NCBI RefSeq assembly: GCF_021568705.1
Contig: NZ_JAKGTH010000006.1
Span: forward strand, 372,001-436,000
Length of the DNA: 64,000 nt
DNA from: Gillisia lutea
Lineage (GTDB): Bacteria; Bacteroidota; Bacteroidia; Flavobacteriales; Flavobacteriaceae
Direction of reading: 5' to 3'
Shown here: one piece after another, positions 2,063 through 10,828 of the stretch
How positions within the stretch are numbered: the stretch's first letter is position 1
Layout of the letters: the number at the start of each line of letters is the position of its first letter
Notes under the pieces: generated by a model
Told to the model about the DNA's origin: nothing
Database searches by the model: none
What the model saw: only the letters and a program-made list of their open reading frames with translations
Position numbers and translations under genes: made by a program

Positions 2063-3481
2063 TTAAAGCAATGCATATTCAAACGAGGGATATCCACGCA
2101 TTCCATCTTCATCAAGAAGAGAAGTAAACTTTAATTTATAATTATTTCCAGCCGGATCTTTCACCACAAAATAAATATTCTCTTTTAGAGAAGGCAATGT
2201 TCCCGGCCCTCCGCCGTTTCTCCACTTACTTCCAATAGCGCGCTGATCTTCTTCGAACAAAGACGTATCTACATTTTCCGAAGTGAATTCAGAATAAGCG
2301 ATAGTTTCACTTTCTACCTGATAAGATTTTACTCCATCCAAACGGTTAGTTACTATAAAATCGGCATATCCATAAGAACCGAAGCCCGGGATTTCATTAG
2401 TGAATACCGTAAAGAGAAGATCCCATTCTCCCTGTTTAGGCTGAGCTACCACCTCTTTTTCCTCCACAAGACTGAAATATTGAAAATTATATGTAGCATC
2501 TTTACTAATATTCACCTCACTATGAGAATCTGAATCTAAGGGCGCATATTGTAATGTATAGCCATTGTCTGATCTAAGCACTCTAATTTTCATCCAACCT
2601 CTTGGCTCATCGGTAATATCCACGGCTCCGGTTTCAGCTGTTTCCGTTCCAACTTCATAGCCAAGATTAATCAGGTATACTTTATTTTCTATCTCTTCTG
2701 CAGAAATCTTTTTAATTGCTGTACCCTCTAAGTTTCCATCGGGAGTGTCTACGTACTTAGCATTTGCAGCATCAAAAGTTCCTACAGCAACCTGAGACTG
2801 AAGCTCGGCAACATCGGCTGCGGTTATAAGGTCGATATTAGTTGCTTCAAGTTCGGCAGCAGCCATATAAAGAGACCCGTTAATGATTACTCTAAAATCA
2901 TCACCACTGTAAAATCCAAGATCCCAAGCCTCTCTATTTATAATCATCGATTTCTGTGCACTAAGATCGATGTATACTTGGTTTGGTTGATTTACACCAC
3001 CTACTTCGGGTGCATTGGTCCCTCCAAGCGCTGCAGTCTCTTCAAAGGTTACCTGTACCGTGGTGTTTCCGCTCACATAAGCATCTTCAATGCTTATTGA
3101 CTGAATATTGAATGTGATCATTTTTTCAGTTCCTTCAATAGCATCCTTAAGTTTGGTAAAGTTAAAGCTGGCTCCCTCATCACCTGCAAAAAAATCTATG
3201 AAAATTTCACCATCTACAGCATTTGGAAGTGTGACAAAATCTTCATCTTCTCCATAAATAGCATTGGTAGCGGTGTATCCCACAGTTACCGTTCCGTCCT
3301 GAGAAGCCGGCCTTGAAAATATAAGATTGACATCTTTCGTCTCCTCTTCAGCAGCAAAACTGAGCGAAGGATTTTCAAAAGCGACTACAAAATCTTCTTG
3401 TATTATTGCATTGTCATCTGAACTACAAGCTCCTAAAAGGAACATGGAAATTGCAGTGAATAAGTAGATAGTTTTTTTCAT
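2063..3481 (-). CDS. HmuY-like haem-binding lipoprotein with extra N-terminal domain
   Basis: The product is a surface or periplasmic lipoprotein of 472 residues. A signal peptide ends at a lipobox LLGAC with Cys19, followed by SSDDN. Residues of about 30-150 look like a Calx-beta-type beta sandwich (FSRPASQDGTVTVGYTAT, then GEDEDFVTLP). From about 165 to the end the sequence matches the HmuY family, with QVYIDLSAQKS, REAWDLGFYSGDDFRVIING, GEWDLLFTVF and a closing YKLKFTSLLDEDG. Porphyromonas HmuY is about half this length and captures haem for its partner receptor; that function is transferred from the family. The gene lies 10 bases after the receptor gene, so the two form one operon. Haem ligands cannot be assigned by eye. 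Confidence 0.85.
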   Translation of the reverse strand: MKKTIYLFTAISMFLLGACSSDDNAIIQEDFVVAFENPSLSFAAEEETKDVNLIFSRPASQDGTVTVGYTATNAIYGEDEDFVTLPNAVDGEIFIDFFAGDEGASFNFTKLKDAIEGTEKMITFNIQSISIEDAYVSGNTTVQVTFEETAALGGTNAPEVGGVNQPNQVYIDLSAQKSMIINREAWDLGFYSGDDFRVIINGSLYMAAAELEATNIDLITAADVAELQSQVAVGTFDAANAKYVDTPDGNLEGTAIKKISAEEIENKVYLINLGYEVGTETAETGAVDITDEPRGWMKIRVLRSDNGYTLQYAPLDSDSHSEVNISKDATYNFQYFSLVEEKEVVAQPKQGEWDLLFTVFTNEIPGFGSYGYADFIVTNRLDGVKSYQVESETIAYSEFTSENVDTSLFEEDQRAIGSKWRNGGGPGTLPSLKENIYFVVKDPAGNNYKLKFTSLLDEDGMRGYPSFEYALL

Positions 3482-3491
3482 AATTGATCAA

Positions 3492-5618
3492 TTAAAAATT
3501 AAGGTTGTATAAAAGTTTTAAAAAATAAGATCTTCCATAGCCCAGAATAACGCTGTTAGCCGGGGTTCCTGAATGTACTCCATCAGCACCTGTACTAGTA
3601 TTAGTAACATTTGTGACATTTAAAATATTTCTAGCTCCTAAACTTATCTCTAGGTTTGTATCCTGGAACGTTTTTTTTACCGTGGCATCCATCCAGCTAT
3701 ATGCGCCACGCTTCCCTTTTATAAAGACCACATCGTTATCTTCATTTTGCCCTTGAATGAACTGATATTCCGGACCATTATGCTTAAAAAAGATTGAAAA
3801 TACCGAGCTCCATTTAGGAACAGAATAAGATAAGTTCCCATTAAGCTGGAAGCCATACAGGTAATCGTCATTATAGCCTGTTTGGCTAATCAGCTCTTTA
3901 CTCTCTCCCGAAAAAGAAATTCCCACACCAAGATTCAGGTTGCGTATAGAAATATCATTAGCATAAGACAATCCCCAGTTTTTAAAACTATCTATGTTCA
4001 AATATTTATAGGCGAGCGGACTCTGGTTCACTATGCTCAATTCAATACGGTCGTCTACTGAAAGAAACCATCCAGAAAGTTTACTGTTCATCTTCCAGTT
4101 ATAATCATCGAACCAAAAGGTTTTTTTAAGGTGGAGAAAAGCCGAACTCCCACGTTCTGGGTTGATATTCGGGTTGCCCTGTACATCATGATTCACATCT
4201 ACAAAATAGGTGAATAACTCGTCGTAGTTCGGATTTCTGGGAGAACTTCCTAAGTTTGCTCTTAGTGAATATCCATTCTCAAACCTGTAAACCGAACTAA
4301 GGGTATAAGCGCCTTGTGTATCAAACTTGGAAGAGAACATAGCTCTAAAACCGGGGCGAAGGGAAAATTTATCGCTTATTTTCAATTCAGCAGAAGTAAA
4401 GACATCATAAGATTCGAGCCTTCTTTCAATATTATCTGAATCATAATCCCCCGCGAGAAAAGAGGAATATCCATTAATATTACTAAGCTCGTAACCTATT
4501 TGAGAACTGAACCAGTCATTTTTGAATAGATTATTGAGGCTTCCCCGAGAATAAAGTCCTTGGCGAGATTCATATTCAAAATTCTGATTATTCAGCTCTT
4601 CTCTAGTTTTGATACGATATGTATAAGTTTCTACATTTCGCTTTTGTTCCTGATAAGAGAAAGAAGCCTGATAATTGGCTTTTTTAAATACTTTTCCACT
4701 CAGACTAAGATGATGGTAAAATCGTTCTGAAAAGAATGCCTCGTCACTAGCAGTTGGGTTGGTTGTTTGTGTAGCCGGATTTAGATTAGTTCGAACTTCA
4801 GGGTTGTATTTTTTAGTGAGTTCATCAAAATATTCAAACCGGTAAAACGCTGAAAAACTATTCTTTCGATATCTGAATAGTGTTTTAATATTATTCTGCA
4901 ATTTCGGCAACCATTCATAACCTCTTTCCCCATCATTTAATTGATGGTTTTTTCCTTCCCTATCGGCGAGGAGACCTGTAAATTCATTTCGTGTATATGT
5001 AGCGTTGGCATAAAACTTATTACTAAAGTTATGTCCAATCCTTATAGACTGAATGTGTCGCCCTTTATCAAACCACCCATATTCATTACCAATGGATTCT
5101 TCCTGAAAATAAGGTGTAATTTGCCATTTATGATCTGAAGCTTTTTTGGTGATAATATTTATAATTCCGGAAACCGCATTCGAACCATATTGAACTCCCA
5201 TAGCTCCTTCTACTATCTCAACCTGCTCTATATCGTCTAGATTAATTTGGGTTAAATCGGTGTTATTCCCCAGGCCTTCATCATTAATTAATGGGATACC
5301 ATCTACCAGAATCTTGAAGTATTGAGAATCTAATCCAAAAAGCTCGACCCCGCTTTTTCCTGTAGAAGGGTTGGGCATTATATTGATATTAAGACTTTGA
5401 TTAAGTACATCGGCCAGGTTATTGGCCGCTAGCTGATCTATGGTTTTTCTTGAAATCACTTTGACTTCAAAAACCGATTTATCAATACTTTGTTTATCGT
5501 ACTGGCCCGTTACTACCACTTCATCTAACTGATCGACAATTAGACTGTCTTTTGGCTTTTGCTGAGCCGAAACAACTGTAATACCTAGGAAAAACAAAAG
5601 AGGAGTATAAATTTTCAA
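3492..5618 (-). CDS. TonB-dependent outer-membrane receptor (HmuR-like, haem/iron)
   Basis: The product is a 708-residue gated outer-membrane channel. A signal peptide ends VVSAQQ. A TonB-box-like segment LDEVVVTGQYDKQ comes at about 31-43, then the plug domain (VKVISRKTIDQL, NIMPNPSTGKSGVELFGLDS, GIPLINDEGLGNN, IEQVEIVEGAMGVQYGSNAV at about 130-150, GIINIITKK), then a 22-strand-type barrel ending in FLKLLYNLNF with a terminal Phe. The reading frame starts with TTG (reverse strand, 5618-5616), and the signal peptide begins directly at that codon. Pairing with the HmuY gene suggests haem as the substrate; the sequence alone does not prove it. No carboxypeptidase-like N-terminal extension of the SusC type is present. 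Confidence 0.9.
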   Translation of the reverse strand: MKIYTPLLFFLGITVVSAQQKPKDSLIVDQLDEVVVTGQYDKQSIDKSVFEVKVISRKTIDQLAANNLADVLNQSLNINIMPNPSTGKSGVELFGLDSQYFKILVDGIPLINDEGLGNNTDLTQINLDDIEQVEIVEGAMGVQYGSNAVSGIINIITKKASDHKWQITPYFQEESIGNEYGWFDKGRHIQSIRIGHNFSNKFYANATYTRNEFTGLLADREGKNHQLNDGERGYEWLPKLQNNIKTLFRYRKNSFSAFYRFEYFDELTKKYNPEVRTNLNPATQTTNPTASDEAFFSERFYHHLSLSGKVFKKANYQASFSYQEQKRNVETYTYRIKTREELNNQNFEYESRQGLYSRGSLNNLFKNDWFSSQIGYELSNINGYSSFLAGDYDSDNIERRLESYDVFTSAELKISDKFSLRPGFRAMFSSKFDTQGAYTLSSVYRFENGYSLRANLGSSPRNPNYDELFTYFVDVNHDVQGNPNINPERGSSAFLHLKKTFWFDDYNWKMNSKLSGWFLSVDDRIELSIVNQSPLAYKYLNIDSFKNWGLSYANDISIRNLNLGVGISFSGESKELISQTGYNDDYLYGFQLNGNLSYSVPKWSSVFSIFFKHNGPEYQFIQGQNEDNDVVFIKGKRGAYSWMDATVKKTFQDTNLEISLGARNILNVTNVTNTSTGADGVHSGTPANSVILGYGRSYFLKLLYNLNF

Positions 5619-5655
5619 TACGTTAATTTTATTTAGACTTATTCTTGATAAGGAA

Positions 5656-5705
5656 CAAATATATATATTATTATTATTTAGAATAAATAAAAATAACTAT
5701 TTTTG
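5656..5705. promoter_or_regulatory. divergent promoters flanking a 17-bp palindrome (candidate Fur-type operator)
   Basis: On the reverse strand TATATTTG (5663-5656) and on the forward strand TATTTTTG (5698-5705) both match the TAnnTTTG -7 box, one for each divergent operon. Between them lies TTATTTAGAATAAATAA at 5674-5690, a 7-3-7 perfect inverted repeat that covers the -33 zone of both promoters. Fur regulation is inferred from gene content; the palindrome itself is directly visible. Confidence 0.5.
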
Positions 5706-5728
5706 AAACAAATATTAATTTCTTAAAT

Positions 5729-6631
5729 ATGTCAACAAAATTCTACACGCTACTCATTGCACTTTTAACCACCACATTAATTAGTGCCCAAACCAAAAAA
5801 GAGAAAGATGCAGAAGCCATCAAAAAGATGTGCGGATGTTATGAAGTAAGTTTCAATTTCTCAGAAACCTTCAATTACTCAAAAGATTCATTATATAAGC
5901 CTTCAGATAATAAGATTACAGGAGGACTTGAATGGGCACAGCTTATAACTGATGACGATGAAAATATCTCCATTCAGCATTTACTACAGGTTGGAGACCC
6001 TGCAAAACCATACATTGTAAAACACTGGAGACAGGACTGGCTTTATGAAAATGAAGAGTTTTATATGTATGATGGAGATAATAAATGGGATTATGTGCTA
6101 AAGCCTGAAGAAGAAGTTGAAGGACAATGGACACAAAAGGTATATCAGGTAGATGACAGTCCTAGATACGAAGGATCTGCTACCTGGGTGCATGTAGATG
6201 GAAAGAGCTATTGGGAAAATACTACTCCGGCACCGCTACCAAGAAGAGAATATACAACTCGAAGTGATTATAATGTAACAATTAGAGGAAACCGTCACGA
6301 AATCACGCCTTTTGGTTGGGTTCATGATCAGGATAATAAAAAGGTAATTAGAAAGAATGGAGAGGAAGATTTTGTACTGGCACAAGAAAAGGGGTATAAT
6401 GTTTATAAAAAAGTAGAGGATAGCCGTTGCCAGGCAGCAGCTGACTGGTGGAAGCAAAACGAAGAAAAATGGGCAATGGTTCGCAACAAATGGGAAGATG
6501 TTTTTAGCCGTGACGAAAACCTTATCCTAGAGGAGAAAGTTAATAACTCCCCTCTTTATAAATATCTTTTCGAGGAGGAATATAGTTCCGAAGAAAAGAT
6601 CGAAGAGATAATTAGTTCATTTGTAAAATAA
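5729..6631 (+). CDS. secreted DUF6607 family protein
   Basis: The product is 300 residues with a signal peptide ending ISAQTKK. The mature protein begins with a KKMCGCYEVSFNFSETF motif holding two close cysteines. It continues with Trp-rich beta segments (KHWRQDWLYENEEFYMYDG, NKWDYVLKPEE, SATWVHVDGKSYWENTTPAP) and a conserved NRHEITPFGWVHDQDNKKV stretch. This matches DUF6607, a family of unknown function seen in Bacteroidota and Proteobacteria. It is first in a four-gene run with gaps of 6, 1 and 11 bases, transcribed away from the HmuY/receptor pair, so a periplasmic role in haem or iron handling is likely but inferred. No catalytic motif is recognised. Confidence 0.8.
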   Translation: MSTKFYTLLIALLTTTLISAQTKKEKDAEAIKKMCGCYEVSFNFSETFNYSKDSLYKPSDNKITGGLEWAQLITDDDENISIQHLLQVGDPAKPYIVKHWRQDWLYENEEFYMYDGDNKWDYVLKPEEEVEGQWTQKVYQVDDSPRYEGSATWVHVDGKSYWENTTPAPLPRREYTTRSDYNVTIRGNRHEITPFGWVHDQDNKKVIRKNGEEDFVLAQEKGYNVYKKVEDSRCQAAADWWKQNEEKWAMVRNKWEDVFSRDENLILEEKVNNSPLYKYLFEEEYSSEEKIEEIISSFVK

Positions 6632-6637
6632 TTTAGA

Positions 6638-8128
6638 ATGAAATATTTTACAAATACTGTTTTACAATTAATAGTGTTCCTCTCAGTTACTAGTTTAACT
6701 GCTCAGGAAAACATATTACTCGAGCGCGATTTCTGGCAGAAGCAACCTGATCTTGAAACCGTTCAGACAGAAGTGGAGAAAGGAAACGATCCTACCCAAT
6801 TAAATTCCAACGCTTTCGATCCGGTTGTGTATGCGCTCCTCGAAAACGAAAAAGAAGAAGTGATCGATTATCTGCTTTCTTTTGAAGGAAACAAAGTCGA
6901 AAAACGAACTCATGATGGTAGAACCTACCTGTTCTGGGCTGCTTACGGGAATGATGTAAAAACAATGAAAAAATTGCTTGACAAAGGATCAAAACTTGAT
7001 GTTAAGGATACTCATGGCAATACGCCACTTACTTTCGCGGCTTCAACCGGACAGACCAATAAAGAAATCTATGAGATCTTCGAAGAGTATGGCACTATAA
7101 TTTCTGAAGACACCAATGAAGACGGAGCCAATGCACTTTTACTTATTGCACCCTACTTAAAAGATGCTTCAGAGTTAGATTATTTTCTTTCTAAAGGAAT
7201 AAAACTTAATAGTACCGATAATGCCGGAAACGGAATCTTTAATTACGTAGCCAGAAATGGGAACATTAAATTACTTCAGCAATTAATAGAGAAGGGAGTT
7301 AATTATAAACAACCCAATAATGAAGGAGGAAATGCCTTTTTGTTTGCTGCACAGGGCAGTCGGGGTCATAGCAATTCTATCGAAGTATATAAATTTTTGA
7401 AAGAACATGGTCTTGATGCGGCAGCAGTAACCAATACCGGTTCCACTGCTTTACATCGCGTTGCCTATTCTGGAGACGAAGAAATTCTTAATTTCTTTTT
7501 GAAGAATGGAGCAAGCGCTGTCCAAAAAGATGAAGAAGGAAATACGCCATTTTTAAATGCCGCAACTAGAAACTCTCTAGAAAATGTTCAGCTCCTGGCG
7601 AAATATGTAGATGAAATTGACCATACCAACAATGATGGTCAAACAGCCCTGATGATGGCTATGCGTTATAATGAGCCAAGTGTGGTTAATTTTTTATTTG
7701 AAAAAGGTGCGAATACCCAGCTTACAGATAACTCGGGAAATAACCTGGCCTATTATCTATTCATTTCCGGAAAAGTTTCTAGTGATTTCAATAAAAAGTT
7801 GGCATGGTTGCAGGAACATGATATTCGTTTAAACGCAGCGCAGATGGAGGGAAACAATCTGTACCATATAGCCGCTAAAGCCAATAATTTAGAGCTACTT
7901 AAAGAACTTTCAGGGTTGGATGTAGATATCAATACCAAAAATGATGATGGATTAACCCCATTACACTTAGCAGCAATGAAAACCGAAAATGATGAAATTC
8001 TAAAGTATCTTATATCAGAAGGTGCCGACATTAGTATAAACACCGATTTTGGAGAAAGCGTCTACCAACTGGCCAGCGAAAATGAGATACTGGCGAAAAA
8101 CAAAGTCGAATTAAATTTTTTGAAATAA
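6638..8128 (+). CDS. secreted ankyrin-repeat protein
   Basis: The product is 496 residues. The signal peptide ends TSLTAQ, so the protein is exported. From about residue 65 onwards it consists of ankyrin repeats, with hallmark segments such as DGRTYLFWAAYGNDVKTMKK, HGNTPLTFAASTG, GSTALHRVAYSGDEEILNFF, EGNTPFLNAATRNSLENVQL, DGQTALMMAMRYNEPSVVNF and DGLTPLHLAAMKTENDEILK. About ten to twelve repeats fill the chain. Ankyrin repeats bind proteins; a periplasmic one is uncommon, though a periplasmic ankyrin protein is known beside a catalase gene in Pseudomonas. Its place between DUF6607 and DUF2271 suggests a scaffold for the haem/iron system. The partner is unknown. Confidence 0.9.
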   Translation: MKYFTNTVLQLIVFLSVTSLTAQENILLERDFWQKQPDLETVQTEVEKGNDPTQLNSNAFDPVVYALLENEKEEVIDYLLSFEGNKVEKRTHDGRTYLFWAAYGNDVKTMKKLLDKGSKLDVKDTHGNTPLTFAASTGQTNKEIYEIFEEYGTIISEDTNEDGANALLLIAPYLKDASELDYFLSKGIKLNSTDNAGNGIFNYVARNGNIKLLQQLIEKGVNYKQPNNEGGNAFLFAAQGSRGHSNSIEVYKFLKEHGLDAAAVTNTGSTALHRVAYSGDEEILNFFLKNGASAVQKDEEGNTPFLNAATRNSLENVQLLAKYVDEIDHTNNDGQTALMMAMRYNEPSVVNFLFEKGANTQLTDNSGNNLAYYLFISGKVSSDFNKKLAWLQEHDIRLNAAQMEGNNLYHIAAKANNLELLKELSGLDVDINTKNDDGLTPLHLAAMKTENDEILKYLISEGADISINTDFGESVYQLASENEILAKNKVELNFLK

Positions 8129-8129
8129 G

Positions 8130-8615
8130 ATGAAATCTCTATTGAAATTTATACCCATTGCCACCTTGGTTTTTCTTGGAATAGTTGCTTTTAATAAAGT
8201 TGAAACTACTCCTGTAAAATGTATGGTTCAACTAATCAATTACTCCGGAGAAGGAGCGTACATTATAACCTCCCTTATTAATCCTGAAGGCAAATATGAA
8301 AAAACGCTCTACGTTCAAGGCGAGGATAGTGAATGGTATAGCGATATTCCCGAATGGTGGAAATTTTACGGTAAGTATCGCCCTAATATTGATGCTATTA
8401 CCGGAGAAACGATCGCAGGAGGTGAGCGTAGCATTATACTGCTTCAAATTCCAACTGAAAAGATCGATGCGGGATATAGCATCAGGTTTGAGACTTCAGT
8501 AGAAGATAAGGCATATCATAAACAAGATGTTCAGTTTGAGCTTACTTCAGAAAGTATCAAAAGTAAAGTGGAAGGAAATGGCTTTATTCGATACGTGCGA
8601 ATGATGCCACAATAA
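8130..8615 (+). CDS. DUF2271 domain protein
   Basis: The product is 161 residues with an N-terminal hydrophobic segment (FIPIATLVFLGIVAF) that works as a signal or anchor. The rest resembles DUF2271: KCMVQLINYSGEGAYIITSL, YEKTLYVQGEDSEWYSDIPE, WWKFYGKY and DAITGETIAGGERSIILLQI. DUF2271 proteins are periplasmic, of unknown activity, and are commonly encoded next to PepSY-TM iron-related membrane proteins, as here. The gene starts one base after the ankyrin stop and ends 11 bases before the PepSY gene, so translation is probably coupled. No metal-binding cluster of Cys or His is obvious. Confidence 0.8.
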   Translation: MKSLLKFIPIATLVFLGIVAFNKVETTPVKCMVQLINYSGEGAYIITSLINPEGKYEKTLYVQGEDSEWYSDIPEWWKFYGKYRPNIDAITGETIAGGERSIILLQIPTEKIDAGYSIRFETSVEDKAYHKQDVQFELTSESIKSKVEGNGFIRYVRMMPQ

Positions 8616-8626
8616 ATCAGGGTTTT

Positions 8627-10828
8627 ATGATTAGGTCTATTTGGAGATACAGCCATTTAATACTGGCCGTATCTTCTTCTATATTTTTATTACTTGCTGC
8701 AGTAACAGGAACGATCCTGGCAGTAGAACCTGTCTCAAACGCGACCAAGGATTATAGTATAGAAGGCCTAAATGAGATTTCTATAACCCAAACCATATCC
8801 GGGTTAAAATCGAAGTACATGGAAGTACTGGAATTAGAAATCACTCCTTCAAACTATGTTGTGGCTTCCATTCTTACTGAAGATTTTGAAAGTAAAACTA
8901 TTTATATAGATCCAAACGACCTTTCGGAGTTAGGAACGGTAGAGGACCGGGCTACTTTCTTCAATTTCATGACTAATTTTCACCGTTCTCTTTTTTTAAA
9001 AAGTACAGGTAGAATCTTTGTAGGAATTGTTTCTTTTCTCCTATGCTTAATAGCAATAACAGGCTTAATTTTACTCATCAAGCGACAAGGTGGTTGGTTA
9101 AAGCTTTTCGGTAAAATAAAAGAAAGGAATTTTGAGCAGCGTTATCACGTAATTCTGGGAAGGTGGTTTTTAATGCCAATTATCATTATATCGGCTACAG
9201 GTGTTTTTCTCTCTGCTGAAAAATTTGAATTAACACCTTCTTATTCTATTCAACATACTTGGAAGGAAAATAATTATGATGAATTTGAAGCAGCAGAACT
9301 TTCGGATTTTCCGGGGCTGAAAAAAATACATCTTAATGAGGTTAGAAAAATCGTTTTTCCCTTTTCTGAAGACCCTGAAGATTTTTACCAGATTCAGTTA
9401 GCTAACAGAGAAATTCTTATCCATCAATTCACGGGCGAAATTGTAAGCGAGCAAAAATATCCCTTCGTGCAACTTGCCTCTATGCTAAGTATGCAATTAC
9501 ATACTGGTGAAGGAAATCCAATTTGGGCAATAATCTTATTTATTTCCAGCGGGAGCATTCTTTTTTTTATGTATTCTGGGTTTGCAATGACTTTAAAGTC
9601 GCTGGTCAAAAAGAAACCCAAACTCACCACAACTGCAGATAAAGATGAAGCCGAATACATTATTCTAGTGGGATCAGAAACCGGAAAAACTTTTGATTTT
9701 GCTTACCGTTTTAGTAAAAGCCTGGAAAGCCATGATAAACTTGTACATCTTTCAAGTCTTAATGAATATTCTACTTATAATAACGCTAAACATATAATCA
9801 TTTTCACCGCTACATATGGCGATGGAGATGCTCCGGCTTCGGCAACAAAGTTTTTAAAGAAGTTTAAACAGGTTGAACCTAAAAATCCTGTTGATTGTAC
9901 CGTGGTAGGTTTTGGATCTATGCTCTATCCTAACTATTGTAGTTATGCGGAAGATATTCAGAAAGAACTGAAAGCTCATTCATCTTTTAAGTCGATCATG
10001 GAACTTACAAAGATCAACGAACAATCTTTTGAACAATTTAGAGGCTGGGCAAATAATTGGGGAGCCAAGAATAATATTCCAGTTCATTTAGTGCTGTTAG
10101 ATTCCGATATTATCAGCAGAAAAAGAACCGTAAAATTTAAAGTCCTTGACATATCCGAAGTGAATATTGACAATACTTTTCTTTTAAAATTAAAACCACA
10201 TAAACACACTAAATTTAAATCAGGTGATCTTATAGGGTTCACACCTCCTAATGCCAGACGGGAAAGATTATATTCTATTGCCAAGATTGATGGTTCTATT
10301 TTATTGAGCATAAAAAAACATGAATTTGGTAAATGTTCTAACTATTTGGGATTATTGAAAAAAGGTCAGATCATCGATGGCACCATCGAAAAAAACACAA
10401 AATTCCACTTTCCTTCTAAAGCACCAACAGTTATAATGATAAGTAACGGAACGGGAATTGCCCCCTTTCTGGGAATGATACAAAATAACAAGAATACTTC
10501 CATTCACTTATTTTGGGGTGGAAGGAGTGCGCAGTCTTTCAATATATATAACTCGTATGCTAAAGATGCTCTAACAAAGAAAAAAATTGAAAGTTTTGAA
10601 AATGCTTTTTCCAGGGAAGGAGAACAAATCTATGTGCAGGATCTACTTTTGAAAAATCGGGAATTTTTAGTCAATGCTATTGAAAATGGTGCAGTAATCA
10701 TGATTTGCGGCTCCATTAACATGCAGAATGGCGTAATAAAGGTTATCGACAATATTCTTGAAGAAACTTCAAATCTGACATTGGGCGATCTGGATCTTAA
10801 TAAGCAATTGAAGATAGATTGCTATTAA
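8627..10828 (+). CDS. PepSY-TM / flavodoxin / NAD(P)H reductase fusion (predicted transmembrane ferric reductase)
   Basis: The product is 733 residues in three parts. Residues 1-330 form a PepSY-TM membrane unit with four helices (about 10-32, 128-150, 176-194, 300-325) and conserved histidines near membrane edges (NFHRSLF, RYHVILGRW, MQLHTGEG) suited to haem b. Residues about 342-480 are flavodoxin-like (ILVGSETGKTFDFAYRF, FTATYGDGDAPASA). Residues about 500-733 are a ferredoxin-reductase-like module with FAD motif RERLYSIA near 544, pyridine-nucleotide motif SNGTGIAPFLGM near 605, and a C-terminal Tyr stacking position. This is the layout of sulfite-reductase-flavoprotein-like PepSY proteins. 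Electrons would pass NAD(P)H-FAD-FMN-haem to a periplasmic acceptor, perhaps ferric iron or haem; the acceptor is inferred. Last gene of the operon. Confidence 0.88.
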   Translation: MIRSIWRYSHLILAVSSSIFLLLAAVTGTILAVEPVSNATKDYSIEGLNEISITQTISGLKSKYMEVLELEITPSNYVVASILTEDFESKTIYIDPNDLSELGTVEDRATFFNFMTNFHRSLFLKSTGRIFVGIVSFLLCLIAITGLILLIKRQGGWLKLFGKIKERNFEQRYHVILGRWFLMPIIIISATGVFLSAEKFELTPSYSIQHTWKENNYDEFEAAELSDFPGLKKIHLNEVRKIVFPFSEDPEDFYQIQLANREILIHQFTGEIVSEQKYPFVQLASMLSMQLHTGEGNPIWAIILFISSGSILFFMYSGFAMTLKSLVKKKPKLTTTADKDEAEYIILVGSETGKTFDFAYRFSKSLESHDKLVHLSSLNEYSTYNNAKHIIIFTATYGDGDAPASATKFLKKFKQVEPKNPVDCTVVGFGSMLYPNYCSYAEDIQKELKAHSSFKSIMELTKINEQSFEQFRGWANNWGAKNNIPVHLVLLDSDIISRKRTVKFKVLDISEVNIDNTFLLKLKPHKHTKFKSGDLIGFTPPNARRERLYSIAKIDGSILLSIKKHEFGKCSNYLGLLKKGQIIDGTIEKNTKFHFPSKAPTVIMISNGTGIAPFLGMIQNNKNTSIHLFWGGRSAQSFNIYNSYAKDALTKKKIESFENAFSREGEQIYVQDLLLKNREFLVNAIENGAVIMICGSINMQNGVIKVIDNILEETSNLTLGDLDLNKQLKIDCY

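Follow-up and report, generated by a model that had tools for sequence, protein, structure and literature searches.

A two-module locus of Gillisia lutea that probably couples Fur-controlled haem uptake to a transmembrane ferric reductase

What becomes of the iron in imported haem is an open question in flavobacteria such as Gillisia lutea; the authors of a study on Flavobacterium psychrophilum list several proteins that have yet to be identified, including a haem oxygenase and a transporter of the inner membrane (PMC9331221). The question is raised by six genes at positions 2063-10828 of a 64,000-nucleotide stretch of the G. lutea genome (contig NZ_JAKGTH010000006.1, positions 372,001 to 436,000; hereafter the window), which form two divergent sets around a 110-bp gap (5619-5728). 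We conclude that this is probably a Fur-controlled haem and iron acquisition locus made of two modules, in which haem uptake is coupled to a transmembrane ferric reductase. As its operon joins a haemophore to a self-contained transmembrane reductase, the locus provides candidate genes and one enzyme with which the question can be tested directly. A haem/iron locus of six genes placed head to head had been proposed in an original prediction made from the sequence. The genes, their arrangement and their coordinates were borne out by the list of open reading frames, all six of which were confirmed, and by Pfam, where every assignment for the six proteins scores above the curated cut-off; the assignment to haem or iron is upheld by a RhuH-family match, by the HmuY and receptor genes and by a Fur-like box.

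The outer module is best recognized by its DUF6607 protein (300 amino acids, 5729..6631, plus strand; Pfam 323.9 bits; signal peptide assigned by eye, as throughout), which on sequence and modelled fold is a haemophore of the RhuH family. Compared with RhuH of Riemerella anatipestifer (PDB 8xjc), the sequence gives a phmmer E of 3.8e-89 for 8xjc_A. An AlphaFold2 model built from 61 input sequences (predicted local distance difference test, pLDDT, 90.9) retrieves 8xjc_B as the top Foldseek entry (E 5.7e-31, TM 0.85), and in VIA the same model matches 8xjc at Z 35.6, with a root-mean-square deviation (rmsd) of 2.1 over 274 residues, the next row having a Z of 10.5. Sequence and fold matches both span nearly the whole chain. 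RhuH binds haem with a Kd of 3.44e-11 M and its secretion in vesicles has been reported; haem is coordinated by His96, and Arg143, Tyr144, Arg170, Arg183 and Gln198 lie on the propionates of the predicted complex (PMC11967795). In the phmmer alignment these contacts fall on H99, R146, Y147, R173, R186 and Q201 of the window protein. All six are invariant in 18/18 DUF6607 proteins from several families of the phylum and in 61/61 proteins from the window and 60 named loci, the latter belonging to 80 loci that are the best matches to the window DUF6607 among at least 566 confirmed ones and that are mostly Flavobacteriales by title (three are titled only 'Bacteroidia bacterium'). Given the match to 8xjc and the RhuH paper, DUF6607 was rejected as a protein of unknown function. 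The periplasmic handler without known function of the original prediction is instead a member of a haemophore family whose relative RhuH is found in secreted vesicles. No paper naming DUF6607 was found in the open-licence PMC literature.

On the minus strand follow a TonB-dependent receptor (708 amino acids, TTG start, 3492..5618; Plug 73.9 bits) and an HmuY-family protein (472 amino acids, 2063..3481; PF14064 93 bits in two matched stretches; lipobox LGAC, also read by eye), the counterpart of RhuA and HfpY. By its position the receptor is the putative counterpart of RhuR. Since DUF6607 belongs to the RhuH family, the three genes would together be the counterpart of the RhuH-RhuR-RhuA haem system. 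In Riemerella, rhuH, which is controlled by Fur, and rhuR-rhuA diverge from a shared promoter of 122 bp that includes a Fur box (PMC11967795); likewise, the window haemophore gene is separated from the opposed receptor and HmuY genes by a short promoter in which a Fur-like box lies, and its product retains the haem-contact residues. The Riemerella system is drawn as three genes, whereas the window haemophore heads an operon with ankyrin, DUF2271 and reductase genes. The Hfp system of F. psychrophilum resembles the locus in its iron-controlled receptor and HmuY-like haemophore and differs by a DoxX gene between receptor and HfpY; electron-transfer genes near the hfp operon have already been noted there (PMC9331221). 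HmuY lies within four genes of DUF6607 in 22, and the same receptor cluster in 24, of 25 DUF6607 loci (from 24 of the 25 genomes with a match in a phylum sample, fragment G270 being left out, plus G310 of the window's genus).

The HmuYRSTUV operon of Bacteroidales includes HmuS, a CobN-type protein, and its HmuTUV partners. Unlike this operon, the whole window genome holds no CobN/HmuS-type gene and its single FecCD permease system sits on another contig than the locus; FecCD and CobN served here as proxies for the whole set, HmuT, HmuU and HmuV not being searched for by name. The original prediction pointed out the absence of HmuSTUV as unusual for an HmuY/receptor pair; F. psychrophilum is also reported to be without these genes (PMC9331221). 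For the receptor and the permease of the FecCD cluster, the highest scores (211 and 205 bits) come from vitamin B12 models, yet lie below the model cut-offs of 599.7 and 334, and a plain B12 assignment was rejected. A haem oxygenase of the genome adjoins a phytochrome-type (PHY-domain) kinase and a response regulator, neighbours on account of which it was rejected as a likely iron route. Genome-wide, the profiles count one DUF6607, one DUF2271, three PepSY_TM, two ApbE, one FecCD and one FeoB.

The inner module ends in a fusion protein of 733 amino acids (8627..10828, plus strand) with PepSY_TM (118 bits, cut-off 28.8), Flavodoxin_1 (60.9) and NAD_binding_1 (36.1) domains. When the profile of its membrane half (A4) was compared with the PDB, FoxB (7abw) was the sole match up to E 1, at E 0.001, which together with the PepSY_TM score supports the FoxB likeness first proposed; 7abw is not among the 50 matches listed for the fusion model, a comparison that barely probed the membrane half. 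FoxB carries two haems, each held between two histidines (PMC13038864), and H10, H119, H174 and H292 of the fusion, each conserved in 97% or more of 81 rows, are candidate haem ligands. FoxB and another ferrisiderophore reductase, HiuB, share with the fusion the PepSY_TM domain and a TonB receptor alongside, and may share the haem-ligand histidines (PMC13038864, PMC13001220). The second half appears from the model to be a diflavin module of the P450-reductase/nitric oxide synthase type: residues 337-733 match the P450 reductase 5urd_A at Z 28.3 (rmsd 8.8 over 382) and residues 494-733, the domain for flavin adenine dinucleotide (FAD) and reduced nicotinamide adenine dinucleotide phosphate (NADPH), match 1f20 at Z 29.3 (rmsd 1.9 over 238), the whole model reaching a predicted template modelling score of 0.46. 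The domain order, a flavodoxin domain for flavin mononucleotide (FMN) followed by the FAD/NADPH domain, is that of CPR and CysJ. A chain NADPH-FAD-FMN-haem-haem is thus likely to be contained within one polypeptide. In contrast to FoxB and HiuB, the window protein also comprises a complete NADPH-FAD-FMN reductase and so has its electron donor built in.

Between haemophore and fusion genes lie, both on the plus strand, those for an ankyrin-repeat protein (496 amino acids, 6638..8128; Ank_2 170.8 bits; signal peptide) and a DUF2271 protein (161 amino acids, 8130..8615; PF10029 125 bits), a possible covalent-flavin carrier for which no clear solved-structure relative was found. The original prediction gave two of the genes no known function, but DUF2271 has a published role as a substrate of ApbE, by which it is flavinylated at [ST]GA[ST], as shown elsewhere (PMC8238504). 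The motif of the window protein reads TGET, which places it outside the flavinylated set by the published pattern. Over 87 aligned rows, including one duplicate (Zobellia, present as both L052 and L096), Ala occupies the third position 66 times, Glu 18 times and Ser 3 times, and in every one of the 87 the motif ends with Thr or Ser. In the tree set, Glu occurs in 16 of 80 labelled rows, every one of them DUF6607-linked, with nine changes among A, E and S. A bond between ApbE loss and the Ala-to-Glu change was considered and rejected, only one independent pair being present on the tree. Of the two ApbE genes of the window genome, both outside the locus, one is surrounded by Nqr genes and the other is close to DUF3570; the window DUF2271 may be modified by such a remotely encoded ApbE. 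An orphan DUF2271 gene with the motif VGET (L052:9088-9576, the same as in L096) follows DUF6607 in Zobellia, with neither ankyrin nor reductase alongside; a complete inner module lies elsewhere in that genome (L065).

Both modules carry signs of a common control. The promoter between the two gene sets contains a Fur-like box, TATTTAGAATAAATAAAAATA (5675..5695, 21.2 bits, 33 bp before the DUF6607 gene), which is the only site of at least 12 bits in the window, and a weaker second box, TATTTAGACTTATTCTTGATA (5630..5650, 11.7 bits), lies 11 bp before the receptor gene. The underlying 21-base palindrome, TATTTAGAwTnAwTCTAAATA, was derived from 63 divergent promoters, three of them siteless (L130, L131, L133), and agrees with the predicted Riemerella Fur box ATTTAGAATTATTCTAAAT; in that organism Fur bound promoter fragments with such boxes, that of hmuR included (PMC5609570). 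Applied to upstream regions outside the motif-building set, it found sites of at least 15 bits before 12 of 19 ankyrin genes (18 of which come from loci without DUF6607) compared with 4 of 484 other genes, and before 5/7 and 4/5 receptor genes of two further TonB receptor types (TBDT_b and TBDT_c) and 0/21 DUF2271 genes. As the boxes also precede ankyrin genes in separate loci, the two modules look co-regulated even when apart, and an iron response of the window locus is predicted. The annotated ankyrin, predicted periplasmic protein and nitric oxide synthase genes B739_0175-0177 of Riemerella are listed as upregulated in low iron, and a PepSY/DUF2271/DUF4198 locus of Caulobacter is a Fur target whose mutants lose fitness in the presence of ethylenediaminetetraacetic acid (PMC12004947). 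In the window genome, Fur-like boxes are also found before a receptor and PepSY_TM pair (L077:6873-10538) and before a lone PepSY_TM gene (L078:9664-10848).

The union of the two modules recurs widely. Within five genes downstream of DUF6607, the named loci hold ankyrin in 62/80, DUF2271 in 65/80 and the fusion in 65/80; all three are present in 61/80, in 60 of these on one strand, and all six genes with a directly divergent receptor in 49/80. DUF2271 is missing from this range in 15/80; at least two of the 80 loci (L150 and L152) end no more than three genes downstream. The median intergenic gaps of the linked form (3, 6 and 12 bp) suggest one transcript, and DUF6607 and ankyrin genes are adjacent and tightly packed in 57 named loci. 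In the phylum sample of 296 genomes, DUF6607 is found in 25, DUF2271 over its cut-off in 22 (with weak matches under the cut-off in a further 13) and both in 16 (Fisher p 1e-15); the corresponding numbers for both, only one, only the other and neither are 13, 2, 2 and 13 in 30 genomes of the window's family (p 1e-4) and 10, 2, 1 and 4 in 17 genomes of genus g2 (p 0.03), p values from which shared descent has not been removed. Absence of co-occurrence beyond this genome had been named at the outset as grounds for giving up the proposal; such co-occurrence was found both in the 61 named loci and in the 16 genomes. More independent support for a link between haemophore and reductase comes from distant loci, namely L029, in another family of the phylum, with HmuY, DUF6607, flavodoxin, DUF6686 and PepSY_TM and a short minus-strand open reading frame between HmuY and DUF6607, L031, where HmuY, DUF6607 and flavodoxin stand together, and L026 of a distant genome, with receptor, PepSY_TM and DUF6607.

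The two modules also occur apart, for which reason the six genes were rejected as one indivisible unit, and the single six-gene haem route first proposed resolves into two gene sets. After two of 21 DUF2271 loci without DUF6607 had been dropped (L068 and L070, with fused DUF2271 and no module), 19 fusion-gene loci remained, in which ankyrin lies within four genes in 18 and ApbE in 14. In Flavobacterium-type genomes the inner module is not joined to the haem genes; ApbE accompanies it in most cases and other receptors in some, and the same box is often present. Ankyrin, DUF2271 and PepSY fusion are a separate conserved module.

It is conceivable how the modules might work together. Both operons would be repressed by Fur. 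The RhuH-type haemophore would strip extracellular haemoproteins of their haem, which the HmuY/RhuA-type protein would keep on the cell surface until the RhuR-type receptor brings it in, steps that have been shown in Riemerella for relatives and are transferred here by homology and position. The PepSY fusion could pass electrons from NADPH via FAD, FMN and two b haems through the inner membrane. On the periplasmic side DUF2271, possibly carrying a flavin that an ApbE encoded elsewhere has bound to it covalently, might hand them to ferric iron, while the exported ankyrin protein may act as scaffold or docking partner. Reduced iron would enter via FeoB. The back-to-back genes of many marine Flavobacterium relatives hint at a reduction of captured haem iron prior to its use, and we infer that what enters through the haem receptor supplies the inner module with iron to reduce. 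The chances are about even that the enzyme is a reductase with broad ferric substrates, here serving what this receptor imports.

Several observations weigh against such a coupling. Linkage to DUF6607 changes only three times, and ApbE adjacency once, in a tree of 81 fusion proteins, which indicates that 61/80 reflects shared descent more than repeated joining; the count is moreover biased, as the named loci are best matches, and it was rejected as independent evidence. DUF6607 is present in only 2/16 genomes of the window's genus (2/11 good ones), and among the 25 DUF6607 loci the whole inner module occurs only in the window and G310. ApbE is found in 0/80 named DUF6607 loci, the window DUF2271 is without the exact flavinylation motif, and the low-iron cluster B739_0175-0177 was equated with the inner module through annotation names alone. 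The B12 scores below cut-off make a haem role possible for the FecCD cluster, so that this system could import haem. Finally, a different receptor type, TBDT_b or TBDT_c, lies within four genes in 8 of the 19 modules without DUF6607, which indicates substrates other than haem.

This last observation, with the TBDT_b receptor inserted between DUF6607 and ankyrin genes in L083, L099, L101 and L125, makes it nearly as likely that the inner module reduces ferric siderophores or ferric chelates in general, in the manner of FoxB and HiuB, shares no more than the Fur promoter with the haem genes and does not have haem iron as a substrate. HiuB and FoxB work on siderophores (PMC13038864, PMC13001220), and DUF2271 genes of Alteromonas neighbour iron-responsive receptors. 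We place this explanation somewhat short of an even chance. The tight operon with the haemophore gene in the 57 named loci and the separate haemophore-PepSY links of L026 and L029 argue against it. The route of the original prediction, in which DUF6607, ankyrin and DUF2271 take charge of periplasmic haem one after another and the fusion reduces its iron, agrees with the shared operon and gene order and with the setting described above (no CobN-type gene, a lone FecCD system with its best scores for B12 models, the place of the haem oxygenase next to a phytochrome-type kinase and a response regulator). It is unlikely, as the relative RhuH is located in secreted vesicles and nothing found here points to haem binding by ankyrin or DUF2271. 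Rather improbable, too, is the farthest-reaching form of the coupling, according to which marine Flavobacteriaceae would use a reductive periplasmic route for haem iron, with haem brought by the haemophore losing its iron on the outer side of an NADPH-driven diflavin-dihaem PepSY enzyme, aided by DUF2271 and ankyrin, and with Fe(II) taken up by FeoB, and would need neither a haem importer of the ATP-binding cassette type nor a cytosolic haem oxygenase for iron. Service to another metal such as copper, conceivable given the diversity of PepSY_TM proteins and the fact that CrpH, which is controlled by copper, supports haem-copper oxidases, is very improbable in view of the Fur-like boxes, the haemophore neighbours and the iron response reported for the name-matched counterparts.

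Under the preferred reading, a haem system coupled to a ferric reductase, both halves have published precedents: the haemophore system is known, and so is the PepSY/DUF2271 kind. The published flavinylation clusters likewise combine a PepSY_TM reductase with DUF2271, and 1077 PepSY-like genes carry an NAD-binding domain (PMC8238504); the window differs in having ankyrin instead of DUF4198, no ApbE at the locus and an altered motif. The word ankyrin has no occurrence in the main text of that paper, and a paper on FeoAB contained no term of the module among those sought. In the open-licence PMC literature, as far as its papers were accessible in excerpt, no description was found of haemophore genes united with ankyrin and a diflavin fusion, and no paper was found there that treats PepSY, flavodoxin and ankyrin together.

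Some minor features surround the locus. By names given by eye, it is flanked by a ribose-phosphate pyrophosphokinase gene on one side and by pyruvate dehydrogenase subunit genes on the other. DUF6686, a protein of about 117 amino acids with a CxxC motif seen by eye, was not found in the window genome; it is encoded after the fusion gene in 15/80 named loci, L086 included, once past a 485-base gap, and in L029 (10712-11056) between flavodoxin and PepSY_TM. In L062, L067, L069 and L072 the module is adjoined near the ankyrin gene by clusters c23 and c24, which correspond to the small and large chains of ribonucleotide reductase (Pfam in L062).

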